A stretch of 64,000 nt of DNA from Coleofasciculaceae cyanobacterium (GTDB lineage: Bacteria; Cyanobacteriota; Cyanobacteriia; Cyanobacteriales; Xenococcaceae). Position numbers and translations under genes: made by a program. Below, piece by piece: positions 5,331-60,288 of the stretch (the first letter of the stretch is position 1; each line of letters opens with the position of its first letter). The notes under the pieces were generated by a model. It did not search any database, was not told where the DNA came from, and was given only the letters and a program-made list of their open reading frames with translations. Location: the NCBI GenBank assembly GCA_036703275.1, contig DATNPK010000018.1:1-64000 (forward strand), read 5' to 3'.

Positions 5331-6791
5331 CTATAAGACTTTTTCCGATTTGGCACAAGGATCGCGGAAACCTGAGCGAACGCGGTAGGTATAATTTAAT
5401 TCTTGATGAAACCAAGGAGTGTAAGCAAAGGCATAAGGATATGTATTGGGCAAACAAATCTTATCTCCTGGTTCTATTTTCGCGATAATTTCCCGACTGA
5501 TATAGGTTTGTTTAAATCTTGCCAGAGTATTAAAATGAGGCGCAAGATAAATAAAATTGGTTTTGATACCTACAATAATTAGAGCAATTAAGGATATTAA
5601 CCCGACTCGGCTAGGCTTGATTAACCGATTTTGGTGGTGAGTAACCAGATATAGGTTAAGAGAAATCAACACCATCATCCAGTACAGGAAATATCTCAGT
5701 TCATGGGATTGGGGAAAATTAGCAGCGATCGAAGACATGACTATAACTACTATTGCCGCAACTTTAGTATGGCGATCGCGATTTTTAGCAATTAAATAAA
5801 TTAGCAACAGAACTTGAAACACCACATAAGCCCCAAAAAAACCACCCATGCGATTGCGGTCTGGATTTTTACTATACTGATCGTGATTCCAGTAGGCAGA
5901 ATTGATCTCTAAAATAGAATAAAGCCACCGTTGGGCTGTTGGTGCATCCGCAAGATAGCCAGGAGCATCACTATACATTGGTAAAGCATGATTTAATACC
6001 TGTCCGGCAATTTCGATGCGGACGGGGTAAAAAGGATTACCGTGAATTGCAATATTTTTAATGGGAGTAGCAAAAATTACCAACGAAGCCAGTAAAGCAA
6101 CGGGGATGGATTTTAGTAGCCAGGTAAATAGCTGCTGTCTATTAGTTGAACGCCAACGTAACCAAAGTATTCTTATGGCGATCGCAGCCAAAACGCTCAA
6201 CACCAATGGCTCTAACTGAGGTTTACTATTTGATGAACCTATCCCAGCCAAAAATATTACCCATAAATCTCGCCGACTAGGATTGTCTCGCTGCTGATAA
6301 AGAACATAAGCCATCATAATCATCATGGCTAAGAAAACATTGGCGATTAAGTCCACATAACTATTAACCGCATGAGCCTGAATTAAAGGAACACCTAAAA
6401 GTGCGATCGCCGTTAAGTAATAAGCAACTTTAAAATAAGTCTTGAGAAAATAGGCATACAAAACTAAACTAAAAAATCCGACTAAGTTTGCTCCCTGAAC
6501 TCTTTGGGTAATCAACCAGAAAAATCCTTGAAAAAACTCTCCTAATAAGGGGAATCCCGCAAATCTTGGCTCCATATTAATAAATTCTTCGGCTGGCACG
6601 ATGTTCCAGATTCTAGCGGCAAAAGGAAGATGATAACCCCAGGTATCATAAGTAGGGTCAACATCAATAATGCCCAGGAGAAAAATTGAGATAGTTAGCA
6701 AAAGAGCGATCGCTTTGAGAACAGTTTGTAATCCTAGCCTTGGTTTTTGAGATGGGGAAGTATTTTTATTTTTGATAGTTGAATTTATCAT
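5331..6791 (-). CDS. Polytopic membrane protein, GT-C-like, paralog 3 of 3
   Basis: About 486 residues from ATG at 6791 (an ATG at 6845 is in frame, but the extra 18 residues do not match the paralogs). Ten or more hydrophobic segments; the first lumenal loop carries DVDPTYDTWGYHLPFAARIW, shared with the two genes upstream, which recalls the acidic first loop of GT-C glycosyltransferases (lipid-linked sugar donors). Other shared blocks are ATPIKNIAIHGNPFYPVRIE, GGFFGAYVVF and FPQSHELRYF. It ends the leftward operon. Likely inner-membrane glycosyltransferase or glycan-processing protein; no enzymatic role is proven. A short C-terminus ending CAKSEKVL distinguishes it from its paralogs. Confidence 0.65.
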   Translation of the reverse strand: MINSTIKNKNTSPSQKPRLGLQTVLKAIALLLTISIFLLGIIDVDPTYDTWGYHLPFAARIWNIVPAEEFINMEPRFAGFPLLGEFFQGFFWLITQRVQGANLVGFFSLVLYAYFLKTYFKVAYYLTAIALLGVPLIQAHAVNSYVDLIANVFLAMMIMMAYVLYQQRDNPSRRDLWVIFLAGIGSSNSKPQLEPLVLSVLAAIAIRILWLRWRSTNRQQLFTWLLKSIPVALLASLVIFATPIKNIAIHGNPFYPVRIEIAGQVLNHALPMYSDAPGYLADAPTAQRWLYSILEINSAYWNHDQYSKNPDRNRMGGFFGAYVVFQVLLLIYLIAKNRDRHTKVAAIVVIVMSSIAANFPQSHELRYFLYWMMVLISLNLYLVTHHQNRLIKPSRVGLISLIALIIVGIKTNFIYLAPHFNTLARFKQTYISREIIAKIEPGDKICLPNTYPYAFAYTPWFHQELNYTYRVRSGFRDPCAKSEKVL

Positions 6792-6938
6792 AATTCTTGA
6801 GCATTGCAAGACATGACTGTAAAAGTAAACCCAGATGCAGCCCAATACTTCTAGTCATTTACTTTGTTATTGATTGGTTGAGTTTGAGGTAGCAAGTAGC
6901 AAGTAACTAACAATAGCTAAACCTCATTACTTATTATT

Positions 6939-6976
6939 TGCGTAGCTTCGCGTCCGCTGCTCCGCTTATCCGTGAT
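6939..6976. repeat. GC-rich dispersed repeat between paralogs
   Basis: GCGTAGCTTCGCGTCCGCTG followed by CTCCGCTTATCCGTGATA. The TTATCCGTGA core recurs near 27750. It is noncoding and contrasts with the AT-rich surroundings. Confidence 0.5.
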
Positions 6977-6986
6977 AGACTCATTT

Positions 6987-8513
6987 TTAAGGTTTGATAA
7001 ATTCTGCGGCATTAGGGGGAATCACCGTTAAATCTCCGCAATCTCTAGGGTCTACGGTAGCTTTGATACTGTAGTCATATTCAATTTCGGGATGAAAATA
7101 AGAACTGTAGTAAAAAGCATTGTGGATTTGAGCAAAAGGGACTGAATTGGGATTTGAGATTGCATGACGAGCGATCATACAGGTACGCTCATTAGGAATC
7201 ATCTGATTTAAAAGCTCTGTTTTTACGGTGTTTTTAAGATAAGGTTGAAAGGAGTTGAATACAGGTTTAAGGTAATAGTCATTAATTCTGATACCCATGA
7301 TCGTGCCAAAAAGCAGACAAACTAACCCCAAATATTGAGGCTGCAACCATCTTCTGGCTCGATTTTGCCACGAGGTAACGACACATAAGTTCAAAGATAC
7401 CAAAGTAATCATCCAGAACATGAAATAGCGCAGTTCATGAGATTGAGGAAAATTGGCGGGAACAAATGACACTAGCAAGATAATAGCTAGGGCTGTAGTA
7501 GCATTACTTGACTTATCTTTAGCAAATGTTCGTTTTTGCAGTTGCTCTGTAATAGTTAAACCGATTAGTAACAGCAGATTGAACACCACATAAGCCCCAA
7601 AAAAACCTCCTGCACGATCTAAATGCCGAGGATTGCCCCCATTCCACTGATCTGCTGACCATTGAGGAGTATTTATTTCTAAAATCGATTGCAGCCATTT
7701 TTGGGGTCTATTGCCCTCACTGTAGGTTTTAGGAGTTAGTTGATGATTAAGAACTATTCCGGCAACTTCAATTTTGATTGGGTAAAAAGGGTTGCCATAG
7801 AAAGCCACATTTTTGATTGGTGTAGCAAAGATTAATCCTGATGCGATCGCCGCCAATGGTATAGTCAGCCATAGTTTACCCTGGCCAGCACTAGAATGTT
7901 TGAAGTATAGCCAAATCACTCTAATTCCTAATATCCAATAGAGTAAAAAGATCAGCGGTTGCAGTTGCGGTTTAGTATTTGCTGCGGTGGCTGCACCTAA
8001 AAAGACAATTAATAGTTCCCCCTTTCTCGGTAATTTGGACTGGCGAAAAAAGCTATAGGTCATCATCATTACTATTGCTACACCAATATTGCCTGGGAGA
8101 TCGACAAAGCTAGTCGTAGCATGAGTTAAGACTGCGGGAATAGTAAAAATAGCAATTACTGATAGGTAAAGAGGAACTTTGAAATAGCTTCTCAGAAATA
8201 AAAAATAAATAATTAAACTTAAATATCCTACTAAGTTAGTCGCCTGGATTCGCCCTGTAATCTTCCATAACAACCCCTGGAAAAAATTTGCCAGCAGGGG
8301 GAAGCCATCAAAACGATGCTCGATTAAATTTTCTGAAATAAAAGATTTTTCTGGAACAATACCCCAAATTCTGGCAGCAAAAGGCAGATGATACCAACCC
8401 ACATCATAGTTAGTGTCAACATCAATAATTGCCTTGAGAAAGATTGAGATGGTGATGATTATGGCAATTATACTCAGAATTATTTCTAATACTTGCCTAT
8501 TCTTCTTTAGCAC
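6987..8513 (-). CDS. Polytopic membrane protein, GT-C-like, paralog 2 of 3
   Basis: A 508-residue membrane protein with the same pattern as its two neighbours: an N-terminal membrane helix, a lumenal loop with DVDTNYDVGWYHLPFAARIW, then about ten helices including SFVDLPGNIGVAIVMMMTY and ending with a soluble tail. FATPIKNVAFYGNPFYPIKI and FPQSHELRYFMFWM are conserved among the three. Clear tandem duplication. Context (glycosyltransferases, sulfotransferase, flippase-like protein upstream on the same strand) points to surface glycan or glycolipid assembly. About 140 bases separate it from the next paralog. Confidence 0.65.
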   Translation of the reverse strand: MLKKNRQVLEIILSIIAIIITISIFLKAIIDVDTNYDVGWYHLPFAARIWGIVPEKSFISENLIEHRFDGFPLLANFFQGLLWKITGRIQATNLVGYLSLIIYFLFLRSYFKVPLYLSVIAIFTIPAVLTHATTSFVDLPGNIGVAIVMMMTYSFFRQSKLPRKGELLIVFLGAATAANTKPQLQPLIFLLYWILGIRVIWLYFKHSSAGQGKLWLTIPLAAIASGLIFATPIKNVAFYGNPFYPIKIEVAGIVLNHQLTPKTYSEGNRPQKWLQSILEINTPQWSADQWNGGNPRHLDRAGGFFGAYVVFNLLLLIGLTITEQLQKRTFAKDKSSNATTALAIILLVSFVPANFPQSHELRYFMFWMITLVSLNLCVVTSWQNRARRWLQPQYLGLVCLLFGTIMGIRINDYYLKPVFNSFQPYLKNTVKTELLNQMIPNERTCMIARHAISNPNSVPFAQIHNAFYYSSYFHPEIEYDYSIKATVDPRDCGDLTVIPPNAAEFIKP

Positions 8514-8755
8514 TGATTACTAATTACTAGTTACTAAATATTAAATTAAAGTATGTCAAACCAAGGTAAAAAATTGATTATTTCATCTTAGTTTGTAGCT
8601 TTGTAAGTTTGAATTCACTCTTGAGCGGTTAATATAGCAATTCTCATATTTATAAGTTATAAGGTACACTTCAATTAGGCATGAACCATTAGCTATTAGC
8701 AAAAAACCAGGGGGTCAGACTGTAGCTTATGTGAATGAGAACCGCTATAGCTTGC

Positions 8756-10306
8756 TTAAGAAGATTTATTCAAATAACCAGGAATAATCGTGCGATCGCC
8801 ACACGCTTTTAAATCTAGTGCCGCTTGAACTGAATAATCGTAATCTAGTTCGGGATGAAAATACGAGCTATACAAAAAGACATATTTCAAAGGTGCTATG
8901 GGTGCAGTTTGAATATCTTCGCCGATGTGTTTACTAACTAAGCAGACTTGCGCATCTGGTTGAATTTGCTTGAGAAATCCTGGCTTCACGCCAAAAGTAA
9001 CGTATTTATCTAAGGTTATTAAAGATGGTTTGGCAAAGAACGTACCTATTTTTACCAGAACAATAGTCAGAAATACGGCATAAACTAAACTCACATATTT
9101 GGGCTGCAACCATCGTCCTAAAAGCTGCTGGTTCTTGGGTAAAGAAACTAAATAAAGGTTGAGAGATACTAAACAGATCATCCAGTACATAAAGTATCTC
9201 AGTTCGTGGGATTGAGGAAAATTCAGAGGAACTAGAGTCATGGCGATCGCTGTTAGCACCGCAAACTTTGCTTCCCTGGGGCGATCGTTTTTAGGCAAGG
9301 ATCTATTCTGAATTAACTCTCTAACCAAAAATCCCAAAAGCAGCAACAGATTAAACACCACATAAGCACCAAAGAAACCTCCGCGACGGCTGCGACTAGG
9401 GTAATTACTCCATTGATCGGGTGTCCAAGTTAATGGAGCATTTATTTCTAGTACGGATTTAAGCCAGCTTAGTTGTCTATTTCCTTCCTCAAATGCTTCT
9501 GGATTAAGTTTGTGGTTTAAGACAATTCCCCCTACCTCAATTTTAATTGGGTATAAAGGATTGCCATAGAGAACGGTATTTTTCACTGGGCTAGCGAAAA
9601 TAATAATCGAGGCCAATAGAGCAATTGGCAGGATTTTGAACAGTTTAGTCAGTGATTTTTCTCGCCAATAGAGCCAGCCTAATCTGATGCCGACAACTAT
9701 CAAAATTACGAATACTAAAGGCTGTAGTTGAGTTTTAGTATTAACGGCGATCGCTGCACCGAGAAAGGCAATCAACAGTTCTTGTATCCTGGGCAACTGC
9801 CTATTCTTATAGAAGCTATAGGTCATCATCACCAGTATCGATGTCCCGACGTTACCAAGTAGATCGACAAAGCTAGTACTAGCGTGAGTTAAAACTAGGG
9901 GAATCGAAAATAAAGCTATTACTGAGAGATATAGAGGTACTGCAAAATAATTTCTCAGAAAAAACCAGTAGCCAACTATGCTTAAAAAGCTGACTAAATT
10001 TGTCGATTGCATTCGCCCTGTAATGCGCCAAAAAAAACCTTGAAGAAAATGCGCCAGTAGAGGAAAGCCGTCAAAACGTGGCTCAAACCATTTTTCGTCT
10101 CCTGTAAACATCTCCTTGGGCAAAATTCCCCAAATTCTGCCAGCAAACGGTAGATGATACCAGCCAGGATCGTAGTTGTTGTCGATATCTAAGATTACTT
10201 TGAGAAATACTGAGACGGTTAGAGTTAGCGCAACTATAGATAATATTGTCTCTATTCCCAGTCGTCGCTGTTTTGATCGTTCCTGTTTCGTAGCAAAATC
10301 TAACAT
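8756..10306 (-). CDS. Polytopic membrane protein, GT-C-like, paralog 1 of 3
   Basis: 516 residues, closest in layout to the 6987-8513 protein. First loop DIDNNYDPGWYHLPFAGRIW; then SFVDLLGNVGTSILVMMTYS, ASPVKNTVLYGNPLYPIKIE, GGFFGAYVVFNLLLL and FPQSHELRYFMYWM. The cytoplasmic N-terminus is short and basic (KQERSKQRR). The Asp residues in the first extracytoplasmic loop are the best candidates for catalytic groups if this is a GT-C enzyme, by analogy to PMT/ArnT-type proteins. It starts 16 bases after the flippase-like gene, so the two are cotranscribed. No assigned family name is certain. Confidence 0.65.
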   Translation of the reverse strand: MLDFATKQERSKQRRLGIETILSIVALTLTVSVFLKVILDIDNNYDPGWYHLPFAGRIWGILPKEMFTGDEKWFEPRFDGFPLLAHFLQGFFWRITGRMQSTNLVSFLSIVGYWFFLRNYFAVPLYLSVIALFSIPLVLTHASTSFVDLLGNVGTSILVMMTYSFYKNRQLPRIQELLIAFLGAAIAVNTKTQLQPLVFVILIVVGIRLGWLYWREKSLTKLFKILPIALLASIIIFASPVKNTVLYGNPLYPIKIEVGGIVLNHKLNPEAFEEGNRQLSWLKSVLEINAPLTWTPDQWSNYPSRSRRGGFFGAYVVFNLLLLLGFLVRELIQNRSLPKNDRPREAKFAVLTAIAMTLVPLNFPQSHELRYFMYWMICLVSLNLYLVSLPKNQQLLGRWLQPKYVSLVYAVFLTIVLVKIGTFFAKPSLITLDKYVTFGVKPGFLKQIQPDAQVCLVSKHIGEDIQTAPIAPLKYVFLYSSYFHPELDYDYSVQAALDLKACGDRTIIPGYLNKSS

Positions 10307-10322
10307 TGGGAATAAATATCAG

Positions 10323-11321
10323 TTAATTTTGTTTGGAGGTAAACAAAGCAAATCGTTCAACAAAAGAAATTACGGCAAACACCGCTAGAACAATTACTAC
10401 TGCGACGATATAGAGAAACCGCTGCATCAGAGAATACTTAAGCGCACTGGCATCTGATACATCAAATAACCCTAATAAACCAATCCAGCTAAATTCCATC
10501 AGTCCTAAATTAGCAGGAGTAAAGCTTAACAACATTGCCAACTGCACGATAGGAGTTACAAAAACTACAGCCGACAGCTTAATTTTTAAGCCGCCTGCGA
10601 TCGCAATGAAAATTCCGCGAATAATCCAGACTATATAACGGACTACCGAAATCCAATAGAGATAAAGGGTAAATTTTTTGCCCAGAATAGAATCATTACC
10701 TGTAGCTATTTCTGCTTGAGCTGCTTTATTTTTTCCTGCCTTTAATTGTTTAACCCAAGTCAAAACTTTAATCAACCAAGATATCAAACTGCGATGCCAT
10801 TTGTCGATCACAAAGTGGGTCAAAATAATCGTCGCAATCCAAATAAAAACTGCTACTGATAAAGAAATATAGCTAAACACATATAAAATCGCAGCTGGAA
10901 ATAATAATAAAGGGATTAAAAAGTTAAAAAATTGGTCATAAATAACTGAAAGAAAGCCTTTAGAAATAGAACTGATTTTATGTACTCGTAAAGCTAAATT
11001 TTGCACTATGACCATGCCTACATACTGAGGCATAAACTGCATGGTCAAAGAACCTAGAGTAGTATAAAAAAAATAAAATTTTACTGGCTGTTGGTTATCT
11101 GGAGTTAGCTTTTGAGTAACTAAACCCCATTTATAAGCCGTTAAAAAAGTATGGACAATTAGAGTTGTAATTGCCAATCCGGCATACAGCGGATTCAGGC
11201 TATAGAAGCTAGCTACAATTTGCTCAAGATCAACCTCAGTAAAGCGCAGGATTAACCAGACCAAGAAAAATCCTAAAGCCAGGGATAAAATACTAGATAT
11301 AACGTTTTTTTTAGTTAACAT
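10323..11321 (-). CDS. Lysylphosphatidylglycerol-synthase-TM (UPF0104) flippase-like protein
   Basis: A 332-residue membrane protein with about eight helices. It has the family pattern of an N-terminal helix pair, a central LTMQFMPQYVGMVIVQNLAL block and the C-terminal TPANLGLMEFSWIGLLGLF block that is the most conserved element of the MprF-flippase/AglD family. Members move or modify lipid-linked molecules across the inner membrane. It is in the middle of the leftward glycan operon between a sulfotransferase and the GT-C-like paralogs, so a lipid-linked sugar is the likely substrate; that is inference from context. The start overlaps an AT-rich repeat containing ATTTAACATTGAG. Confidence 0.75.
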   Translation of the reverse strand: MLTKKNVISSILSLALGFFLVWLILRFTEVDLEQIVASFYSLNPLYAGLAITTLIVHTFLTAYKWGLVTQKLTPDNQQPVKFYFFYTTLGSLTMQFMPQYVGMVIVQNLALRVHKISSISKGFLSVIYDQFFNFLIPLLLFPAAILYVFSYISLSVAVFIWIATIILTHFVIDKWHRSLISWLIKVLTWVKQLKAGKNKAAQAEIATGNDSILGKKFTLYLYWISVVRYIVWIIRGIFIAIAGGLKIKLSAVVFVTPIVQLAMLLSFTPANLGLMEFSWIGLLGLFDVSDASALKYSLMQRFLYIVAVVIVLAVFAVISFVERFALFTSKQN

Positions 11322-11356
11322 TTAACATTGAGAATTAAGCATTTAACATTGAGCAT
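11318..11356. repeat. Low-complexity CATTGAGCATTAA repeat
   Basis: Alternating CATTTAACATTGAGAATT and CATTTAACATTGAGCATT units. Similar TCAATGTTCAATGCTCAATG strings occur at 33778-33811 and 19775-19807, apparently a family of AT-rich intergenic micro-repeats. Confidence 0.5.
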
Positions 11357-11471
11357 TAAACTTGAAAAAAATTGTATTAGCTCTTGACTTTTGATGTTAT
11401 ACCCTTGTGGCTTGTCCCCGAATGGGGATACTCTTGACTCGAGCGCACCCATTAATTATCAATGCCAAATA

Positions 11472-12401
11472 TCAATTCAACGTATCGTACCCCCATTTTG
11501 TCACTAAGTCTATGTCAAGCAATTCTGATATTTTAATAACCTCGGGCTTATATTGCTGCATCAGTTGCATTTTGATTTGTTCGGGCATTTTGGCTTTCGG
11601 GGCTTGATACCAAAGCAATTTTTCGACAATTTTATCCCGCACAAAATCATTAAATTCTTGAGAAACTAGGTTTTTAGAGATGCTTTTCACCATGGGATTA
11701 TTAATTAAGTTATTAATCGCTTTAAACTTAACTTCTTTGTTAACATTTACCGCTTCGTATTCTGGCGTAAAGTTCGATACTCCTAAAAACTCTAGTATTT
11801 CTCGAAAGACACGTTCATTTTCGGACTGAAACTCTTCAAAGATTACAACTTTAATCTGATTATTACTAAAGCGATCGCGATACCGCTTTACCTGCTGATA
11901 ATATTGCACCCGCTGAGAATAGTAAACATAGCTAGGGCTAGTTACCCTAGGACTCAGAAATTTTTCTTGGTGGCGTTCTTTTTCTAAGTCCAAAGCCGTT
12001 AAAAAATCTGGTTCGTTCTCTTCGGTAAATTTAACGTAGTGACTATGAAGCGAATAGAGAAACTTAGCCGGTTCACGCAAAATAATAATAATTTTGCCAT
12101 CAGGATTGAAATTATGGATTTTTTCCGCTGTTACCTGAGAATAGAGATAATTAGTCGAGGATTCTCCTGCAATTTTGACATTTTTGGCTTTGCTAAAAAG
12201 CTGTAAATAAGCTGACTCATTTCTAAAGTCAAAAAAACGTTGTCTACCATAAGCGCGATCGCTCTCTAAATGAAAATCAGAACAAAAGAAGTGTGGCTCT
12301 TTGATGCTCGACATATATATTTCAGGATGTTGTCCCAAAAATTGGTGTAGAGCTGTTGTTCCAGATTTGGGCTGCCCGACAATAAATAAATTAGGCTTCA
12401 T
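11472..12401 (-). CDS. PAPS-dependent sulfotransferase
   Basis: 309 residues of the Sulfotransfer_1/3 type. The 5'-phosphosulfate loop is seen at residues 6-16 (IVGQPKSGTTA) and the 3'-phosphate motif in IIILREPAKFLYSLHSHY (about residues 105-122). It transfers a sulfuryl group from PAPS to a hydroxyl, here probably on a sugar of the surface glycan, because both flanking gene sets are glycosyltransferases and membrane glycan proteins on the same strand. Cytoplasmic, no signal peptide. Sulfated exopolysaccharides are well known in cyanobacteria. The exact acceptor cannot be read from the sequence. Confidence 0.85.
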   Translation of the reverse strand: MKPNLFIVGQPKSGTTALHQFLGQHPEIYMSSIKEPHFFCSDFHLESDRAYGRQRFFDFRNESAYLQLFSKAKNVKIAGESSTNYLYSQVTAEKIHNFNPDGKIIIILREPAKFLYSLHSHYVKFTEENEPDFLTALDLEKERHQEKFLSPRVTSPSYVYYSQRVQYYQQVKRYRDRFSNNQIKVVIFEEFQSENERVFREILEFLGVSNFTPEYEAVNVNKEVKFKAINNLINNPMVKSISKNLVSQEFNDFVRDKIVEKLLWYQAPKAKMPEQIKMQLMQQYKPEVIKISELLDIDLVTKWGYDTLN

Positions 12402-12429
12402 AAAGATTACAATTGATGAGTAATTAGAC

Positions 12430-13374
12430 TTATGCCTGCGTCTGTAATTTTGCTTTTAAGCGAGCAGCTACGCGCTCTTGAATTCGAGAATCCTGCAAGT
12501 ATCTACGCCAACCCATTGGTCCTAGCAGCATAAAGTTGGCAGCTAGCTTGAACAAGTTAGTCGATTCACCATGAACCATTGCTGCCAGGGTAGTATTAAC
12601 TTCCGTCGAGAATAAAGCCACCTTAGTAACTTCTTTATTGGATTTTGGCGGCAGATGACGATTGACCACCGAGCGCATTTGCTGGCGAAATTCTTCCACA
12701 CTAGAGCTTCGGCGGATAGTTTGCGAGTCTCCATGTACCCTAAATGCTGACAAAGGATTAGCAATATAGCAGGTATCACCCGCCGCAGCTAATTTAAGCC
12801 AGAAGTCCCAGTCGGCGGTATACCACAGTTCATTGTTTAATCCGCCCACCTCAAGAGCTAATTTTCGCTTAAACACAGGTGCGGGAATGGCAATAAAGTT
12901 TTGCACCAATAGTTTCTCCATCATCCCCTCGGCAGAAATTATTTTCTTTCTAGTTGGCAAAGGACATCCCCATAAACCCAGAGGTTTGCTTTGCTCATCA
13001 ATAAATACGGAGTCGTGGAGATATAAAACAGCTTGGGGGTAAGCAGCGATCGCTTTTTTAAGTTTGTCTAACCGTCCTTCTAGCCACAGATCATCCTGAT
13101 GTAGAAAACAGGTATAGATTCCACTAGCTTCTGAGAGGGCATGATTGGTATTAGCAACCCAGTTACCCTGTCTGGCTTTAGTAATTAATTTAATATTCAG
13201 CAGCTTTCGATATTTCTCGACAATTGTTAGAGTATTATCTGTTGAGCCGTCATCAATTACGACACATTCAATTTCTCGGTCTTGTTGCAGAGCGATCGAA
13301 TCAAGGGCTGCTGCTAAATACTTGCTGCCGTTGTAAGTAGGAATAATAACTGATAACCAAGGCGGTTTAATCAT
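12430..13374 (-). CDS. Family 2 glycosyltransferase
   Basis: 314 residues with a GT-A fold: LSVIIPTYNGSKYLAAALDS at the N-terminus, VVIDDGSTDNT, then the DxD-type QDD (LHQDDLW, near residue 95). It transfers a sugar from a nucleotide-sugar donor, retaining no membrane domain. Its start overlaps the stop of the upstream gene by four bases (ATGA, 13371-13374), so the two are translationally coupled. The C-terminal half is helical and without known motifs. Donor and acceptor are unknown; the operon suggests a sulfated surface glycan. Confidence 0.85.
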   Translation of the reverse strand: MIKPPWLSVIIPTYNGSKYLAAALDSIALQQDREIECVVIDDGSTDNTLTIVEKYRKLLNIKLITKARQGNWVANTNHALSEASGIYTCFLHQDDLWLEGRLDKLKKAIAAYPQAVLYLHDSVFIDEQSKPLGLWGCPLPTRKKIISAEGMMEKLLVQNFIAIPAPVFKRKLALEVGGLNNELWYTADWDFWLKLAAAGDTCYIANPLSAFRVHGDSQTIRRSSSVEEFRQQMRSVVNRHLPPKSNKEVTKVALFSTEVNTTLAAMVHGESTNLFKLAANFMLLGPMGWRRYLQDSRIQERVAARLKAKLQTQA

Positions 13375-14558
13375 CGTTTTAAGCCCAAAATACTCAAAAA
13401 GAAACTAGAGAAAATTGTTTGAATACCTAAAGCTAAACAAGTAACTCCAGGAATGACAATCGGCATTGTTTCCGTAGGATTAAGAGAACCAAAGTCATGT
13501 TGTCCCCAAATATCAAAGGCATAAACTGACGCTGCTAGACCCATAACCACTAGTATACTTCCAGCAATCAAGCCTGTTTCTAGATTGAGATAATCAAACA
13601 GTCGATTCAAGCGTCTGTCCTCTGGTAAAAATCCTTCGCTAATGCCAAATACCTTGGTAAACAGGGCGAACAGGACAATTTGGAAACCAATAGTCATCGC
13701 CGTAGAAGAGTAAAGTAAACTATGTACTTTAGGACTTGGTAATAAAGACAAAGTTGCTAACAAGCCAGCCAAAATTAAAAAGATACCAGGATAGAAAAAC
13801 AGCCAGCGAGGACTATACATTAACAAGAAACGCAGGTGTCTCCAACCATCACGCCAGGTATTAAGATGAGGAGGGCGACTACGACCATCGGGAGAGAGAA
13901 TTGTCGGTACTTCTGTAATTTGCATTTTATGGAGAGTGGCTTTGACGACCATCTCGCTGGCAAATTCCATTCCCGTAGTTTGCAAATCTAAATTAGAAAT
14001 TGCATCTTTACGAAAACCTCTTAATCCACAGTGAAAATCATTACAAGGACTACCAAATAAAAGTTTGCCAATACCAGTTAGCACAGGATTGCCTAGATAT
14101 CTGTGTAAAAAAGGCATTGCTCCAGATTCAATTCCGCCTTGGAAGCGATTTCCCATGACCAAATCGTAACCGTTACGTAGCTTTTTAATAAAAGGATTTA
14201 GGCTGCTAAAGTCGTAACTGTCATCAGCATCGCCCATGATGATATATTTGCCTCTAGCTGCTGCAATACCACCTTTGAGCGCACTACCATAACCTTTAGC
14301 AGGAATATCAATTACTCTGGCATTGAGCCTTCTAGCGATTTCTTGAGAACCGTCATTACTACCGTTGTCGGCAATAATTACTTCTCCAGCAAGATCGTTT
14401 TCAGCGATGAACCACTGAGCTTTTCTAATGCAGGTTTCTAATGTTTCCGCCTCATTTAAACAGGGCATGATAATCGAAACTTCGAGCGCATTTGTTTGCT
14501 CTACACGCTCTATGTGCCTGTTTACTGGTGTCTCTCTAGTTCTTATATTGCCCAACAT
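13371..14558 (-). CDS. DPM1-like family 2 glycosyltransferase with membrane tail
   Basis: 395 residues. Residues about 25-260 are a GT2 domain (EVSIIMPCLNEAETLETCIR, VIIADNGSNDGS, and MGDADDSYDF as the metal site); the remainder holds four membrane helices. This layout is found in dolichol- or undecaprenyl-phosphate hexosyltransferases, which make the lipid-linked sugar that GT-C enzymes use. That fits the three GT-C-like proteins later in the same operon: this enzyme could make the polyprenyl-phosphate sugar, the flippase-like protein turn it over, and the GT-C-like proteins use it. First gene of the leftward operon. Confidence 0.85.
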   Translation of the reverse strand: MLGNIRTRETPVNRHIERVEQTNALEVSIIMPCLNEAETLETCIRKAQWFIAENDLAGEVIIADNGSNDGSQEIARRLNARVIDIPAKGYGSALKGGIAAARGKYIIMGDADDSYDFSSLNPFIKKLRNGYDLVMGNRFQGGIESGAMPFLHRYLGNPVLTGIGKLLFGSPCNDFHCGLRGFRKDAISNLDLQTTGMEFASEMVVKATLHKMQITEVPTILSPDGRSRPPHLNTWRDGWRHLRFLLMYSPRWLFFYPGIFLILAGLLATLSLLPSPKVHSLLYSSTAMTIGFQIVLFALFTKVFGISEGFLPEDRRLNRLFDYLNLETGLIAGSILVVMGLAASVYAFDIWGQHDFGSLNPTETMPIVIPGVTCLALGIQTIFSSFFLSILGLKR

Positions 14559-30105: not shown

Positions 30106-31482
30106 ATGAAATCGTCTTGGTCAACTATTATGCTTTCAAAGCCACTATTGTATCAGTGGCAAAAAGGCAGTTATCTTTATCGATTTGCTGGTAGATTATC
30201 TAACTGGCGACAGTCGAGTTGGCTGTTTCAATGGTCTGAGGCAATTGGAGCTTGTTTAATTAGCCTCGTTTTTTTGTTCGCTCCTTTTGTTTCTACTTCG
30301 TTAATTGGAGTGTTGTTAATTGCAGTAGCTGCCTTCTGGATTTTAACTACAGCCACGGCATCCAAAAGATTAGTAATTACTCCAGTCCATGTTTTAGTTT
30401 TTTTCTACTGGTGTATTGCCACGATCGCTACAGCTTTTTCACCAGTTAAAGCGGCAGCTTTGAACGGCTGGGTAACTTTGACTCTGTATTTGATTTTATT
30501 CTCCTTCGCTGCTCAAATATTGCGATCGCCCAAATTATGTAACTGGATTCTGACTAGCTTTCTTTTAATTGCCTTAGTCGTTAGTGCTTACGGTATCCGC
30601 CAAGAGTTTTTTGGCGTACAGCAATTAGCAACCTGGAACGATCCTAAGTCGGTTTTGGCTAACGATACTAGAGTTTATAGCTATTTAGGAAATCCTAATT
30701 TATTGGGGGGTTACTTATTACCGGCGATCGCCTTGAGCATAGCTGCGATATTTGTCTGGCGTGGCTGGATTCAAAAAACCCTGGCGGTAATTATGGCAGG
30801 GACAAATTCAGCTTGTTTGTACTTCACAGATAGTCGAGGTGCTTGGTTAGCGATGGTGGTGCTGGTGGGAGTGCTGCTATTACTGTTTTATTTTTGGTGG
30901 CGAGAATATTTACCTCGTTTTTGGCAAGTTTGGTTATTACCCCTGGTATTTGGCTCTTTAGCGGGACTGTTTTTAGTAGCATTTATCTCCTTAGAGCCTT
31001 TAAGAATCAGGATCTTAAGCATCTTTGCTGGCAGGGAAGACAGCAGTAATAACTTTCGGATTAACGTTTGGTCAGCCTGTTTTAAGATCATTAAAGACTA
31101 TCCTCTAATTGGAATTGGTCCAGGAAACGATGCTTTCAACCAAATTTATCCGCGTTATATGGATTCGCGCTACCCTGCACTCAGCGCTTATTCAGTATAC
31201 CTAGAACATATTGTAGAAATGGGATACTTGGGCTTGGGTTGCTTTGTGTGGCTTTTGGCAGCTACCTTTACTCATGGGATACGCCAATTAGTTCGTTTAC
31301 GCTCCGCTAAAAATAAACGAGGTATTTATTTAATTGCGGCGATCGCTGCTACAGCTAGTCTTGCTTTCCATGGCTTTGTGGATACGGTATGGTATCGTCC
31401 CCAAATTAATACGATCTGGTGGTTAATTTTAGCCATTATTGCTAGCTTTTATGATGATCTTGAGAGAGAAGTATCTCCCTAG
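30106..31482 (+). CDS. ictB: IctB-type O-antigen-ligase-like membrane protein
   Basis: 458 residues with 11-12 membrane helices. The O-antigen ligase (Wzy_C/WaaL) pattern is in the extracytoplasmic loop, with NNFRINVWSACFKIIKDYPL and GIGPGNDAFNQIYP. IctB of Synechococcus is of this size and was first reported as an inorganic-carbon transport factor; WaaL homology also allows a role in surface-glycan ligation. The start could be ATG 30106 or 30127. ATG at 30106 has no SD. Convergent with smpB. Confidence 0.82.
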   Translation: MKSSWSTIMLSKPLLYQWQKGSYLYRFAGRLSNWRQSSWLFQWSEAIGACLISLVFLFAPFVSTSLIGVLLIAVAAFWILTTATASKRLVITPVHVLVFFYWCIATIATAFSPVKAAALNGWVTLTLYLILFSFAAQILRSPKLCNWILTSFLLIALVVSAYGIRQEFFGVQQLATWNDPKSVLANDTRVYSYLGNPNLLGGYLLPAIALSIAAIFVWRGWIQKTLAVIMAGTNSACLYFTDSRGAWLAMVVLVGVLLLLFYFWWREYLPRFWQVWLLPLVFGSLAGLFLVAFISLEPLRIRILSIFAGREDSSNNFRINVWSACFKIIKDYPLIGIGPGNDAFNQIYPRYMDSRYPALSAYSVYLEHIVEMGYLGLGCFVWLLAATFTHGIRQLVRLRSAKNKRGIYLIAAIAATASLAFHGFVDTVWYRPQINTIWWLILAIIASFYDDLEREVSP

Positions 31483-55396: not shown

Positions 55397-56623
55397 TTAA
55401 AGTGCTACCACCTCAGTTGATACACCCATGTCATTGAGCATTTCGCTAATTTCTTGGCGATAGATTGCATTCATCACGATTACCTTGTCTGGTTGATAAG
55501 TCTTGAGAAATTCGGGAGCCATGATTTCTTTACCCACGCCTGGGATGAATTTACCGTGACGATGGGGATTAATATCTACTGCATATTCAATTTTGTCGAT
55601 GGTTTTGAGAGTGGTTAAAAATGCAACACACTTGGAACCAGAACCCCAAACTACAACTTTTTCTTGATTAGCTTGAGCATCTTCGAGATACTTTTTCCAA
55701 TATTCGAGCTTGCCAGTTATTTTTTCGGTAAATAACTCTACATCTGCTGCCACGTCTTCAACGGTTTCTTCAAAAGGATGAACTTTGTCAGAAGGCATTG
55801 CTATGGGTTTGGCTTCAATCAAAAGATACTGATCGCCATATTCGCAGTAAAGATCGGTTACTTCAAAACCGCTGTCGCGGAATAAACGAGCTAGTGTACC
55901 AGGACTGAAGTAAGAGCAATGTTCGTAATAAATATCTTCAAAAGCTTGCTCTTTTAAAACTCTGGTATTGTCTGGTATTTCAAATACGACTACAGTATCG
56001 CGATCGCCGATAGATTTACGAACTGTTTTGATAAATTCAGAGGTAGGTTGGATATGCTCTAGGGTATGACGACAACAAATAAAGTCTCCAACATATTCAG
56101 CGTGTTTTTCCGAGTAATAATCTTGAATAAAGGTAACGCGGTTTGCTGCTTCGCTTTCTACTCTTCCAGGAACAACACTAGGATCGATACCCACACCACG
56201 GTTGTTGCCTAATTCACATAGCAGCAGTAAGAAATCTCCCTTACTACAGCCGATTTCGATAATGTCTTTGTTATGCAGATCGTATTTATCGATTAGATGA
56301 TTGGCTAGCTTCAGCGAGAACTTGTTAAAGGTGGGAGAATAGCTTTGTTGATCTTCATAGTTGGGCGCGTAGGCTGACCATTTAGCATCAAACTCAGTAT
56401 TGGTAATAAAGCCACAGCGATCGCAAAAGCCTAAAACCACGTCTCCACAGGGAAAATCTATTGCTTCCTTTTGACTAGAAATCATTAAGCAACTGTGTAC
56501 AGGAACATCGCGAACTTCGTAGAAAACAGTAAGCTCATGATGACCACAATTGGGACATGAATGCTCAATCTTCTGGGTATTTGCTCTTAAATTACTGCTA
56601 GTAGAAATCAAATTTTGCATCAT
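55397..56623 (-). CDS. SAM-dependent C-methyltransferase-like protein, zinc-finger type
   Basis: 408 residues. N-terminal Zn-binding Cys pattern (CPNCGHHELTVFYEVRDVPV, then CDRCG), a class I SAM domain (IIEIGCSKGDFLLLLCELGN, about residues 115-210), and a C-terminal domain of the Methyltransf_14 type (KVVVWGSGSKCVAFLTTL). This three-part build is that of sugar C-methyltransferases such as TylCIII, acting on NDP-4-keto sugars. Second of two tandem paralogs downstream of the RfbF/SDR genes. Some insertions relative to its neighbour. Confidence 0.75.
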   Translation of the reverse strand: MMQNLISTSSNLRANTQKIEHSCPNCGHHELTVFYEVRDVPVHSCLMISSQKEAIDFPCGDVVLGFCDRCGFITNTEFDAKWSAYAPNYEDQQSYSPTFNKFSLKLANHLIDKYDLHNKDIIEIGCSKGDFLLLLCELGNNRGVGIDPSVVPGRVESEAANRVTFIQDYYSEKHAEYVGDFICCRHTLEHIQPTSEFIKTVRKSIGDRDTVVVFEIPDNTRVLKEQAFEDIYYEHCSYFSPGTLARLFRDSGFEVTDLYCEYGDQYLLIEAKPIAMPSDKVHPFEETVEDVAADVELFTEKITGKLEYWKKYLEDAQANQEKVVVWGSGSKCVAFLTTLKTIDKIEYAVDINPHRHGKFIPGVGKEIMAPEFLKTYQPDKVIVMNAIYRQEISEMLNDMGVSTEVVAL

Positions 56624-56746
56624 GATAAAATACTCCTCTATGAAATTTAATTTTAAAAAAATGACTTTACTTTAATTTTGTTTCAAAAACTGTCAGCTAC
56701 GGACAAACCTCAGCTGAATTTTCTTCAAATTTGACTAGCTATATAG

Positions 56747-57976
56747 CTAAACAATTTTTGGTTCGGGGATTGGAACAATAAATTTTCCACCAGATTTTTG
56801 ATACTCTTGCTGTTGCTGTATAATTTCTTCAGCAAAATTCCAAGCTAAAATTAAGACATAATCTGGTTTATCTTCTAGAAGCTTAGTGGGTGGGAATATT
56901 GGTAAATGATTGATCCCCATATAGCGATCGTGCTTAAAAGAATTTAAGTCCACCACATAGTTTAATAGAGTTTTATCTATGCCTAAATAACTCAACATAG
57001 TTGTGGCTTTAGCCGCAGCACCGTAACCGACGACCGTTTTACCTTCTTTCTTTAAGCTCCACAAAATATCCATCAAAGAATATTTAAACGTCATTACCTT
57101 GTCGGCAAAATCGCGGTAGTAGGCAATGTTATCTACCTGAGCCTCTTGTTCTGCTTTGAGCAAAGACTTAACCGATTCTTGGACTGCTTCTGTTGGTTCG
57201 ACATATAGACGCAAAGAACCACCATGTATTTTGGTGCGCTCAACATGGTTTAGGTATAAAGAATGTCTTCGGAAAAGTTTATCTAATGCTGTGACAGAGT
57301 AATAGCAAAGATGCTGATGATAAATTGTGTCAAATTCGCAATGTTCTACCAAATCAACTAAGTAAGGAGCTTCAATTACTGCTACTCCCCGATCTTTTAA
57401 TAAGATAGAAATTCCTGCCACAAAACCATTTAAGTCTGGTACATGAGCCAAAACGTTGTTGGCCAAAAATACATCCGCTTGCTTACCTTCATCTCGCAGC
57501 TTTTGTGCTAACTCTTTACCAAAGAAGGTGCAGATAGAATTTACTCCTGCCTTGATAGCAGCATCTACAGGACCAGAGGCTGGGTCTATCCCCAACACGG
57601 GAATATCATGTTCGACAAAATTTTTGAGCATATAGCCGTCATTACTGGCAGCTTCAATTACCAAACTATTACTATCTAAATTTCTGGTCTCAATTAAATT
57701 TTTAGCACTGCTACCAAAATGCTTTAATAAAGATGCCGATACAGAAGAAAAATAAGGATAGTCTTGGCAAAATAAAATTTCAGGCGGAACTATTTCGGTA
57801 ATCTGAACCAAACTACATCTAGGACAAAAAACTAGATCTAGAGGTGCAGTGTACTCAGGTAAATCTAACTGTTCTTTAGTTAGAAGATTGTCAGCCAGAG
57901 GAGTGTATCCAAAAGAGATAATTGAATTTAGGTCTGAGTTACCGCAAGAGAGACAACTTGACTTACGATCGTTCAT
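56747..57976 (-). CDS. SAM-dependent C-methyltransferase-like protein
   Basis: 409 residues. N-terminal Zn site [20 protein letters not shown] and [12 protein letters not shown], class I SAM motif [16 protein letters not shown], and C-terminal [20 protein letters not shown] domain. Typical NDP-hexose C-3 methyltransferase layout. With the RfbF-like enzyme and SDR upstream it probably makes a methyl-branched deoxysugar for a surface glycan. About 220 bases downstream of the SDR. Confidence 0.78.
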
Positions 57977-58196
57977 AATACGAGTTTATATTTATAAGAT
58001 TTAGTCGCTGACCCTATTATTCAGGGCAATTAATTATGCTCAACTGCCCCAAAATTCAACTTAATTAAACGCTTTATCGCTGACTAAAGGTCACGAAAGG
58101 CTTCAGCATTTTATCTATACCCTTTAAAGAGCAAGACTAAACAACTGCGCTAGCTCTACTTACATAACATAAGCCAGCTCTATATCACCAGAGAAA

Positions 58197-59243
58197 TCAT
58201 TCAACAGCTACTAGCTGCTCTTTTTGCCAACGCAATTCGCCATTGAGTAAGTTATTGGCGATCAAGTATTTAATATGAGCAATTCTTTGGTATTTAGAGC
58301 CTTCAAATTCATCTAAAGTTAGACCGACTTTGCGATACACTTCATATAACTCTGCTGCTCCTTTACGAGCATCCCACTGAGGCTGAAAATCAGGCAGAAC
58401 TTTGGCTATTTTGCTACAGTTAACCCGATAACAGCGATTATCTGGACCAGCATCTGCAGCGTACTCGATTCGGCAGTTAGGCACTGTCTCCTTGACAATT
58501 TCAGCTAAATCACGAATTCGATAATTATCTTCATTGCGACCAACATTAAAAGCTTCATTATGAATTAGTTCTCTTGGTGCTTCTAAAACAGCAATAAAAG
58601 CTCTAGAGATATCTTCAATATGAACAATCGGTCGCCAAGGAGTACCATCGCTTTTGATGTACACTAAGCCCTTGGTGAATGCCCAAGCAACCAGATTATT
58701 TAATACTAAATCAAACCTCAATCTGGGCGACACCCCATAAGCAGTGGCATTTCGTAGAAATGTCGGGCTGAAGTTATCATCCGCTAACTGACTAACATCC
58801 TGCTCTACTTTTACTTTGGAAACTCCGTAAGGAGTAACAGGATTGAAGTTAGACTGTTCGTCAAGCCAATCTTCACCACCTGCACCATAGTTGCTACAAG
58901 AAGAGGAAAAGATAAAACGGCTAACTCCAGCTTGCTTTGCCAATTCAGCTAACTTGACCGAAGCCCGATAATTGATCTCTTCGGTCAATTGAGGATTGAG
59001 ATTACCCAAAGGATCGTTAGAAAGACCAGCCAAATGTAAAATGGCTTCAAACCCTTCTAGATCTTCAAGTTCTACATCTCTGAGATCTTTTTTTAGCTCT
59101 GGTATCTCAACGATTCCTGCGCCAAAAGTGCTTTTAGCATACAGGTCAGTATCTAAACCAACAACATCATACCCTTTGTCGAGAAGCATCGGAACCATGA
59201 GTGTTCCGATGTACCCCTTGTGACCAGTCACCAGTATTTTCAT
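58197..59243 (-). CDS. NAD-dependent epimerase/dehydratase (extended SDR)
   Basis: 348 residues. NAD-binding GHKGYIGTLMVPMLLDKG at the N-terminus, catalytic Tyr-Lys in TPYGVSKVKVEQD, and Ser in FIFSSSCSNYGAGG. Sugar-nucleotide epimerase or dehydratase. Its ATG (59241-59243) lies inside the 3' end of the RfbF-like gene, 77 bases before that gene's stop. Second gene of the sugar locus. Confidence 0.85.
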   Translation of the reverse strand: MKILVTGHKGYIGTLMVPMLLDKGYDVVGLDTDLYAKSTFGAGIVEIPELKKDLRDVELEDLEGFEAILHLAGLSNDPLGNLNPQLTEEINYRASVKLAELAKQAGVSRFIFSSSCSNYGAGGEDWLDEQSNFNPVTPYGVSKVKVEQDVSQLADDNFSPTFLRNATAYGVSPRLRFDLVLNNLVAWAFTKGLVYIKSDGTPWRPIVHIEDISRAFIAVLEAPRELIHNEAFNVGRNEDNYRIRDLAEIVKETVPNCRIEYAADAGPDNRCYRVNCSKIAKVLPDFQPQWDARKGAAELYEVYRKVGLTLDEFEGSKYQRIAHIKYLIANNLLNGELRWQKEQLVAVE

Positions 59244-60021
59244 TTGTTTTTTTCTCCCAAGTTTTCCAAGGTGCGTTACCGCTAGCCCACAAAGACTCTA
59301 AACGGCGTTTGTCTCTCAACGTATCCATACATTGCCAGAAGCCATCGTGCTTATACGCCATAAGCTGATTATCCCTAGCCAATCTTTCCAGGGGCTCTTT
59401 TTCCCACTGAGTATCGTCACCGTCTATATAGTCAAAGATCTCAGGCTCTAAAACAAAGAAAGCACCGTTAATCCAACCTTCTTTGGTTTGAGGCTTTTCG
59501 GAGAACTCAGATATTTTGTCTCCGTCTAAATCTAAATGGCCAAAACGTGCAGGAGGTCGAACAGCAGTCAAAGTAGCTAGCTTACCATGAGAACGGTGAA
59601 AAGCTAATAGATCGTGTAGATTAACGTCAGAAACTCCATCGCCCCAGGTTAACATAAATGTTTCTCTACCAACGTAAGGTGCAAGACGTTTGATTCTTCC
59701 ACCAGTGTTAGTCGTTAATCCCGTGTCAATTAGATCTACATTCCAATCTAGCTGATAAGCACCATGAGTTTTTACACCTCCAGTACCTAGATTTACGGTA
59801 AGATTACTGTTAAGAGCGCAGTAATCTACCATGAATTTTTTGATTACTGCGCCTTTATAACCCAAAGCCACCGCAAAGTCTTTGAAACCGTACTGATGGA
59901 AGTGCATCATAATGTGCCACAGAATTGGTTGTCCGCCAATTTCTACCATGGGCTTAGGTTTATTTTCTGTTTCTTCTGAGATTCGAGTTCCTAAGCCACC
60001 AGCAAGAAAGGCTACCTTCAT
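59167..60021 (-). CDS. rfbF: Glucose-1-phosphate cytidylyltransferase-like enzyme (RfbF)
   Basis: 284 residues from ATG 60021. Nucleotidyl-transferase start MKVAFLAGGLGTRISEETEN, Lys in NKPKPMVEIGGQPILWHIMM, TWGDGVSDVNLHDLLAFHRS, and product part GWINGAFFVLEPEIF. It makes CDP-glucose from CTP and glucose-1-phosphate. RfbF usually ends near residue 257 with WK(T/I)WE; here the frame runs 26 residues more over the SDR start. One extra A in the A7 tract (59245-59251) would put a TGA exactly over the SDR ATG. First gene of the locus. Confidence 0.88.
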   Translation of the reverse strand: MKVAFLAGGLGTRISEETENKPKPMVEIGGQPILWHIMMHFHQYGFKDFAVALGYKGAVIKKFMVDYCALNSNLTVNLGTGGVKTHGAYQLDWNVDLIDTGLTTNTGGRIKRLAPYVGRETFMLTWGDGVSDVNLHDLLAFHRSHGKLATLTAVRPPARFGHLDLDGDKISEFSEKPQTKEGWINGAFFVLEPEIFDYIDGDDTQWEKEPLERLARDNQLMAYKHDGFWQCMDTLRDKRRLESLWASGNAPWKTWEKKTNENTGDWSQGVHRNTHGSDASRQRV

Positions 60022-60288
60022 ATTTTTCTCCTGCTTTAAACATTTAAAGCTTAAATAAAAACTAAGTAATTCTAATAATAAGCTGTGTAATTTTAATAAC
60101 AAGTAAAAATTAACTTGGTATTAATCTTATTGTACTTATTGTAAATATACTTATGGTTTTTTCGTTTAAAGTTTTGGTGAAGTTAAAATCATAAATATGT
60201 AAAGTAGCGAAATTTAACTTAAAAAATTAAAATTAAAGTAAATTTAATATCAGAAAATATATTAAATAAATGCTGTTTAAATAGGACT

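Follow-up and report, generated by a model that had tools for sequence, protein, structure and literature searches.

The window analysed here is a 64,000-nt stretch (contig DATNPK010000018.1, positions 1–64,000, assembly GCA_036703275.1) of the genome of a Coleofasciculaceae cyanobacterium that GTDB places in the Xenococcaceae. It carries seven open reading frames (ORFs), all on the minus strand and running from nt 14558 to nt 5331 in the order GT2a, GT2b, ST, FLIP, GTC1, GTC2 and GTC3 (Table 1), with intergenic gaps of −4, 28, 150, 16, 242 and 141 nt. The place, shared strand and families of all seven genes agree with a preliminary description of this DNA, in which they were read as a complete lipid-linked sugar pathway with a triplicated final transferase. 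The lipid-linked-sugar logic of that description is supported by the present results, and the operon, taken as a whole, is probably a transmembrane glycosylation system of the multi-component (three-component) type in Pleurocapsales-type cyanobacteria.

Table 1. Genes of the operon in transcriptional order.
Gene	Predicted product	Position (nt)	Strand	Basis of assignment
GT2a	Polyprenyl-phosphate sugar synthase candidate, glycosyltransferase family 2 (GT2) with membrane tail	13371..14558	-	Glycos_transf_2
GT2b	GT2 without hydrophobic segments, probable second-sugar transferase	12430..13374	-	Glycos_transf_2
ST	Soluble sulfotransferase candidate, 3'-phosphoadenosine-5'-phosphosulfate (PAPS)-dependent	11472..12401	-	Sulfotransfer_3, Sulfotransfer_1
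FLIP	LPG_synthase_TM / TIGR00374 membrane protein, candidate flippase of lipid-linked cargo	10323..11321	-	PF03706
GTC1	GT-C fold glycosyltransferase, paralog 1	8756..10306	-	Predicted fold
GTC2	GT-C paralog 2, GTC1 sister, 54% identity	6987..8513	-	Sequence and trees
GTC3	GT-C paralog 3, other lineage, start probably ATG 6791	5331..6845	-	Predicted fold and trees

Predicted gene products

GT2a has a Glycos_transf_2 domain (Pfam, E 2.3e-27) with a DAD motif at residues 110–112 and, by a simple count, four hydrophobic segments. Its nearest NCBIfam models are AglJ, a haloarchaeal dolichol phosphate (DolP) hexose transferase and PpgS, all below cut-off (the best, AglJ, with E 1.4e-33 and 116.6 bits against a cut-off of 325), and the best solved relative is a dolichol monophosphate mannose synthase (DPMS; 5mlz, E 7.2e-13), followed by a PglI entry and ArnC entries. 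The sequence fits a membrane-linked GT-A enzyme that would charge polyprenyl phosphate in the manner of DPMS, ArnC and AglJ (the functions of these relatives, and of PpgS, are presumed here). GT2b (Glycos_transf_2, E 5.8e-27), which overlaps GT2a by 4 nt, would probably add the second sugar. ST scores above cut-off for both Sulfotransfer_3 (E 2.9e-17) and Sulfotransfer_1 (E 3.7e-16), and carries the motifs PKSGTT near the N-terminus and LREPAKFLYS. Its solved relatives include 3rnl (E 1.1e-38) and the heparan sulfate N-sulfotransferase 1nst (E 6.3e-9). Simple text patterns resembling what we take to be the 5'-loop and 3'-loop of PAPS binding were each found in 19 of 22 cluster sulfotransferases. 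By family score and PAPS-binding motifs, ST belongs with the PAPS-dependent sulfotransferases, and the corresponding activity is predicted for it. FLIP matches PF03706 (LPG_synthase_TM, E 3.9e-20), a family best known from MprF, and exceeds the cut-off of TIGR00374 (54.8 bits against 43.2).

The three GTC proteins (504–516 aa) pass no Pfam or NCBIfam cut-off, the best subthreshold scores, all for GTC3, being to PMT_2 (10.5 of 26.1 bits), LIC_10190 (33.1 of 100) and WsfD (29.5 of 80). A profile of the GTC family likewise found no sequence match to any solved chain at E ≤ 1, yet the predicted models of GTC1 and GTC3 have a GT-C fold like that of ArnT, their best structural match (PDB 5f15/5ezm, over 380–399 residues at 11–13% identity). 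Structures of Pmt4, STT3 and AglB rank below ArnT. This bears out the earlier proposal of a GT-C rather than a transporter fold. The aspartate of the first loop, which has a catalytic role in GT-C enzymes, is likewise supported: D46 (GTC1 numbering) stands directly after the first long helix, is invariant in 17 of 17 alignment rows and reaches at least 90% in 39 rows. This acidic residue is common to GTC1–3 and would lie in the first extracytoplasmic loop. D148 is invariant in the 17-row alignment, and likewise in the 39-row alignment. The motif (Y)DxxWYHLPFA, reported for all three paralogs, is exact in GTC1 and GTC2 (YDPGWYHLPFA and YDVGWYHLPFA), whereas GTC3 reads YDTWGYHLPFA. Translation of GTC3 probably starts at the ATG at nt 6791 and not at the TTG at nt 6845, since residues 1–34 of the model have a predicted local distance difference test (pLDDT) value below 50 and a sister copy lacks the extension.

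Compared with the nearest relative, the ratio of non-synonymous to synonymous substitutions (dN/dS; own Nei–Gojobori script) is low in all seven genes (0.066–0.171). The three GTC genes have values of 0.106, 0.152 and 0.171, and the neighbouring transketolase-type and UPF0182 genes 0.055 and 0.092. Together with clustering that is kept in 21 genomes, these low ratios show that the gene set exceeds chance. A promoter scan performed no better than shuffled sequence (23 sites against 28.7), as did terminators (9 against 8.6), and these counts are therefore uninformative on transcription units.

Paralogs and inheritance within the family

At E ≤ 1e-3, the three GTC copies are the only ones in the genome. 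GTC1 and GTC2 are 54% identical, while GTC3 shares 42% with GTC1 and 43% with GTC2. Trees place GTC1 and GTC2 as sisters and GTC3 in a separate, older group with copies from Hyella and Xenococcaceae, so triplication in one event, as first supposed, is not supported, and a recent tandem triplication is rejected. The join of GTC1 and GTC2 has a support of 100/99 in one tree; in a second, both groups and one further row descend from a fork with 95/92 that is drawn open. The second tree omits L112 (a fragment), the GTC3-like pieces of L173, a 186-aa piece of G318 and the L186 stub (L and G numbers are our labels for loci and genomes). Several deeper forks, which bear on the order of the old duplications, are weak (e.g., 91/44, 92/87 and 93/89), and the three copies of LEGE 06147 sit on separate branches, two of them weakly placed. 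The GTC2 group consists only of rows of the window's genus. The split between GTC1 and GTC2 is older than this genus, because the GTC1 group holds copies of two other genera (G301 and G310). GTC1–3 are old paralogs under purifying selection.

Twenty-eight positions are fixed (≥85%) within each paralog group yet differ between groups. They were scored on 11 of 13 rows for group 1, 13 of 14 for group 2 and 7 of 7 for group 3, with divergent rows and fragments omitted. They are densest at residues 248–311 (8 of 64; region borders were drawn by hand from the helices of the model) and include residues 47–49 beside D46. Such positions fit different acceptors and prove nothing; the earlier suggestion of one paralog per linkage is plausible. 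At the contig end of L173 (G321), a GTC3-like gene is present as two ORFs (nt 5937–6967; 80% and 75% identical to GTC3 over about 150 aa each), which may represent an interrupted or misassembled gene.

A scan with the GTC alignment, using one genome per species (84,980 species), returned at least 39 loci. At least seven of these, all in Pleurocapsales-type cyanobacteria, carry GT2a, ST, FLIP and GTC, and six of the seven also have GT2b. The hosts are a Myxosarcina metagenome-assembled genome (MAG), Waterburya, Pleurocapsa CCALA 161, a Xenococcus MAG, LEGE 06147, a Xenococcaceae MAG and Hyella. Within the family (27 genomes), FLIP (E ≤ 1e-30) and GTC (E ≤ 1e-40) occur in the identical 21 genomes, an overlap that random placement would give once in 296,010 (plain arithmetic that disregards kinship). 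The six genomes without both include three that are 76–81% complete and three that are 96–99% complete; completeness is only 82% for G320 and 81% for G322. GT2a (E ≤ 1e-100) has one match per genome in 22 of the 27, these being the same 21 and G303.

The clusters of the 21 genomes contain ST (21), FLIP (21), GT2a (20), GT2b (20) and GTC (19). Both clusters without GTC run into the end of a contig, and in one of them a stub remains that matches GTC1 over 49 residues. In G325, the only genome whose cluster lacks GT2b, the operon includes a GT4 gene and two ST genes. The expectation that such clusters keep the sulfotransferase and GT2 genes holds in the family, but outside it neither ST nor FLIP relatives were found in the stretches read (see below). 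At the thresholds used, each genome has one FLIP and one GT2a match but one to four GTC matches, where the three of G318 represent two genes, one of them in two pieces, and the four of G321 include fragments. A single donor-supply core is co-inherited with a varying number of GT-C enzymes. Some GTC copies lie outside the operon (Waterburya, Hyella, G314 and G316; loci L113, L172, L173, L191 and L192, on other contigs), and the stretches read around the copies of these four genomes contain neither GT2a nor ST nor FLIP. The order GTC1-GTC2-GTC3 is retained in four genomes (G000, G070, G319 and G323). Methyltransferase genes occur within the cluster in 6 of the 21 genomes (G307, G308, G309, G310, G311 and G314), and of the close pair G311/G312 one has such a gene and the other does not. 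In the other clusters, no further ORF of methyltransferase size was seen between the named genes, except for the GT4 gene of G325.

Relatives outside the family and described systems

Relatives of the GT-C proteins (37–43% identity) are present in 14 other genomes of a phylum sample of 292, always single-copy and of about 600 aa. FLIP was found at E ≤ 1e-20 in only 2 of 285 phylum-sample genomes, both of the window's genus, and the best ST outside this genus is 41% identical. In L022, an FkbM methyltransferase and a GT4-GT2 fusion adjoin the GT-C relative, and many relatives of one clade have the same neighbours, judged by ORF size. The ~600-aa relatives (L022–L028 and many of L120–L140) carry an N-terminal extension of about 100 residues. 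Next to several of them are ORFs of 386–393 and ~1000 aa, identified where typed as the FkbM methyltransferase and the GT4-GT2 fusion, and diatom endosymbiont genomes (L126 and L127) are among the hosts. In Microseira, a stretch of 10 kb encodes a GTC, a distant relative of GT2a (37%) and a GtrA protein, but no FLIP or ST match was found. In L030 (G109), a 700-aa protein with a Piwi domain (nt 11802–13904, minus strand, E 1.5e-21) is separated from the GT-C relative by one 232-aa ORF.

FLIP is considered the candidate flippase of the operon because related GT2 or GT-C genes repeatedly, if not in every case, adjoin unrelated small membrane proteins, an argument from position only. For example, in L092 and L093, from another family, a GT2a ortholog (69%) and a GT2b relative (50%) lie on either side of two ORFs, which in L092 were identified as methyltransferases. 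L092 also has a GtrA protein above cut-off (E 1.8e-18), and L093 holds a PMT_2 protein. In five loci the GT2a ortholog adjoins a protein with four transmembrane segments that has similarity to EamA/TMEM234 below cut-off. Near the full GT2a ortholog of L093 lies an 84-aa ORF (nt 9892–10146, minus strand) that is 63% identical to part of GT2a and is apparently a remnant copy. Outside the cyanobacteria, two closely related GTC relatives of a Methylococcales MAG (L132, nt 8248–13345) flank a GT2 gene and a VTT-domain membrane protein, presumably of the DedA type. The latter is possibly a further type of flippase that accompanies the same GT-C family.

A statement that no described system has this gene set had to be revised, as the operon follows the logic of three- or multi-component glycosylation systems. 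As set out in parts of PMC11127046 and PMC8035078, these combine a polyprenyl-phosphate sugar synthase and a flippase with a divergent GT-C enzyme, and the examples given include GtrB-GtrA-Gtr, a Citrobacter pentofuranose system, and lipoteichoic and wall teichoic acid systems of Gram-positive bacteria. Several GT-A/GT-C pairs may share one flippase, as described for Lactococcus CflA (PMC8035078). The operon similarly pairs a synthase candidate with a flippase candidate and GT-C enzymes encoded alongside. It differs in that FLIP belongs to PF03706 whereas the flippases named for such systems are of the GtrA, SMR, Wzx or MATE types, in having a fixed sulfotransferase and a second glycosyltransferase as members, and in the apparent supply of several GT-Cs by a single charging enzyme. 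The word stem 'sulf' does not occur in the main text of either PMC11127046 or PMC8035078.

Sulfation of a lipid-bound glycan is described in parts of PMC11980604 for Halobacterium salinarum, where a DolP-linked tetrasaccharide is sulfated (and methylated) while lipid-bound, flipped, and then transferred by AglB (Agl28/25/26/27, Agl29 and AglB). The steps proposed for the operon would be alike, with a glycan on a lipid monophosphate that is sulfated, flipped and moved by a GT-C enzyme, but the H. salinarum pathway is archaeal, protein-linked and has a single transferase. Its sulfotransferases, annotated as alkaline-phosphatase-domain proteins, resemble sulfatases, a feature not shared by ST. 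Cyanobacteria produce sulfated exopolysaccharides, and the synechan (xss) cluster of Synechocystis 6803 also combines sulfotransferases with glycosyltransferases; it is, however, a polymer system with Wzx, Wzy and a polysaccharide co-polymerase (PCP), two sulfotransferases and eight glycosyltransferases, and the term GT-C is absent from the main text of that report (PMC8205485, in part). Actinoplanes missouriensis combines predicted sulfotransferases (wps-1) with GtrA-dependent glycosylation (gsf), but the two are encoded in separate clusters, and the gsf transmembrane glycosyltransferase is said not to be of the GT-C type (parts of PMC13390465). A description of the full set, comprising a fixed sulfotransferase, a second glycosyltransferase, a PF03706 candidate and several GT-Cs on one donor, was not found in the open-licence PubMed Central literature with the words chosen. 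The layout is of a known kind, and the fixed sulfotransferase and the unusual flippase candidate are its new parts.

Proposed pathway and its alternatives

From these families and the predicted fold we infer the following catalytic steps and their order. GT2a would move a sugar from a nucleotide donor to polyprenyl monophosphate at the cytoplasmic face. GT2b would add a second sugar and ST a sulfate from PAPS to the lipid-linked cargo, still facing the cytoplasm (here ST would act on the cargo and not on the acceptor), and in some relatives a methyl group may be added too. FLIP would then turn the cargo to the outer face, where GTC1, GTC2 and GTC3 would use this one common donor to attach it to different acceptors, or positions, of what may be surface glycans. 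The GT2a/FLIP/GTC core is considered likelier than sulfation of the cargo.

Several observations weigh against this scheme. The flippase role of FLIP is that of a candidate, drawn from family name and position. No flippase-type protein was recognised near GT2a relatives in 8 of 15 loci outside the family (L097, L101–L106 and L095, the last of which begins at a contig end), and L093 has only an untyped ORF of GtrA size. Near the GT-C relatives, no ST or FLIP relative was seen in 14 of 14 genomes (in the stretches read), and three of six GTC relatives (L029–L031) have their GT2a ortholog elsewhere in the genome. Within the family, the cluster of G308 is rearranged, with GT2a on another contig. 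The donors of described three-component systems are lipid-linked monosaccharides (PMC11127046, in part), from which a sulfated cargo extended by GT2b would depart, and the acceptor, not the cargo, could be the substrate of ST and GT2b.

The last point leads to a plainer alternative, in which GT2a, FLIP and the GTCs would add a single unsulfated sugar as a side chain while GT2b and ST build or sulfate the acceptor glycan. The single-sugar donors of the described systems (PMC11127046 and PMC8035078, in part) agree with this, as do L032, L135 and L136, which have both GT2a and GTC relatives but lack ST and GT2b. On the other hand, GT2b (20/21) and ST (21/21) are clustered with FLIP, mostly with short gaps, and the sole genome without GT2b carries a GT4 gene in the same operon. 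We consider this alternative rather unlikely. The GTCs could also attach a lipid-linked sulfated glycan to surface proteins, like AglB or protein O-mannosyltransferases. The H. salinarum pathway (PMC11980604, in part), the nearness of GT2a to AglJ and the presence of Pmt4, STT3 and AglB among the structural matches would be consistent with this; however, these structures rank below ArnT, fold rank cannot distinguish acceptors, and AglJ is a match below cut-off. In addition, the matched oligosaccharyltransferase chains are longer (639–867 aa) than the GTCs, which therefore lack the large C-terminal domain, and the flanking ORFs give no hint of an acceptor protein. Transfer to protein is viewed as improbable.

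The initial idea that the genes form an entire pathway to a sulfated polysaccharide, its final transferase or polymerase being triplicated, is largely refuted as to completeness and is given very little credence. The gene set, its single strand and the presence of ST speak for it, as do the sulfated exopolysaccharides known from cyanobacteria (PMC8205485, in part) and a Wzy_C / O-antigen-ligase-type protein (nt 30106–31482, plus strand, E 1.4e-20) 15 kb from the operon. Against it, the paralogs are separate old lineages, GTC copy number varies and some copies lie outside the operon. Furthermore, the nine flanking ORFs of at least 90 aa (1–22.4 kb) include no initiating transferase and no Wzx, Wzy or PCP, the last three being what a synechan-type cluster has. 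They specify a photosystem II protein, a HEAT-repeat protein, a transketolase-type protein, UPF0182, a GNAT acetyltransferase, an M48 peptidase, a 2-keto-3-deoxy-6-phosphogluconate aldolase, an ABC ATPase and a COP23 protein; these surroundings are no polysaccharide locus. Of the 24 farther ORFs of at least 250 aa in the window, 20 were typed. The Wzy_C gene adjoins a histidine kinase gene, and none of the typed ORFs beside it is a further glycan gene. At nt 55397–60102 (minus strand), two C-methyltransferase-type proteins are encoded in series with an NAD-dependent epimerase and a nucleotidyl transferase, apparently a cluster for a branched or deoxy sugar nucleotide, which could be an unusual one. 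No tie was seen between the operon and either the Wzy_C protein or these sugar-nucleotide-type genes.

Returning to the multi-component scheme, an extended form of it is put forward tentatively, as a possibility that falls short of an even chance. It would be an archaeal-style route in a bacterium, by which a short glycan on polyprenyl monophosphate is sulfated (and in some species methylated) before export, turned by a new, PF03706 class of flippase, and delivered en bloc by paralogous GT-Cs that use one donor. If true, the sulfate of these cyanobacterial surface glycans would be installed on the donor inside the cell, and diversity would come from swapping GT-Cs. For most of the family, a small common set of charging enzyme, sulfotransferase, flippase candidate and end transferases is inherited as a unit. 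The operon offers a natural experiment on one lipid-linked donor feeding several GT-C enzymes and a case in which to examine whether PF03706 proteins act as lipid-glycan flippases, and may represent a compact toolkit for sulfated glycans.

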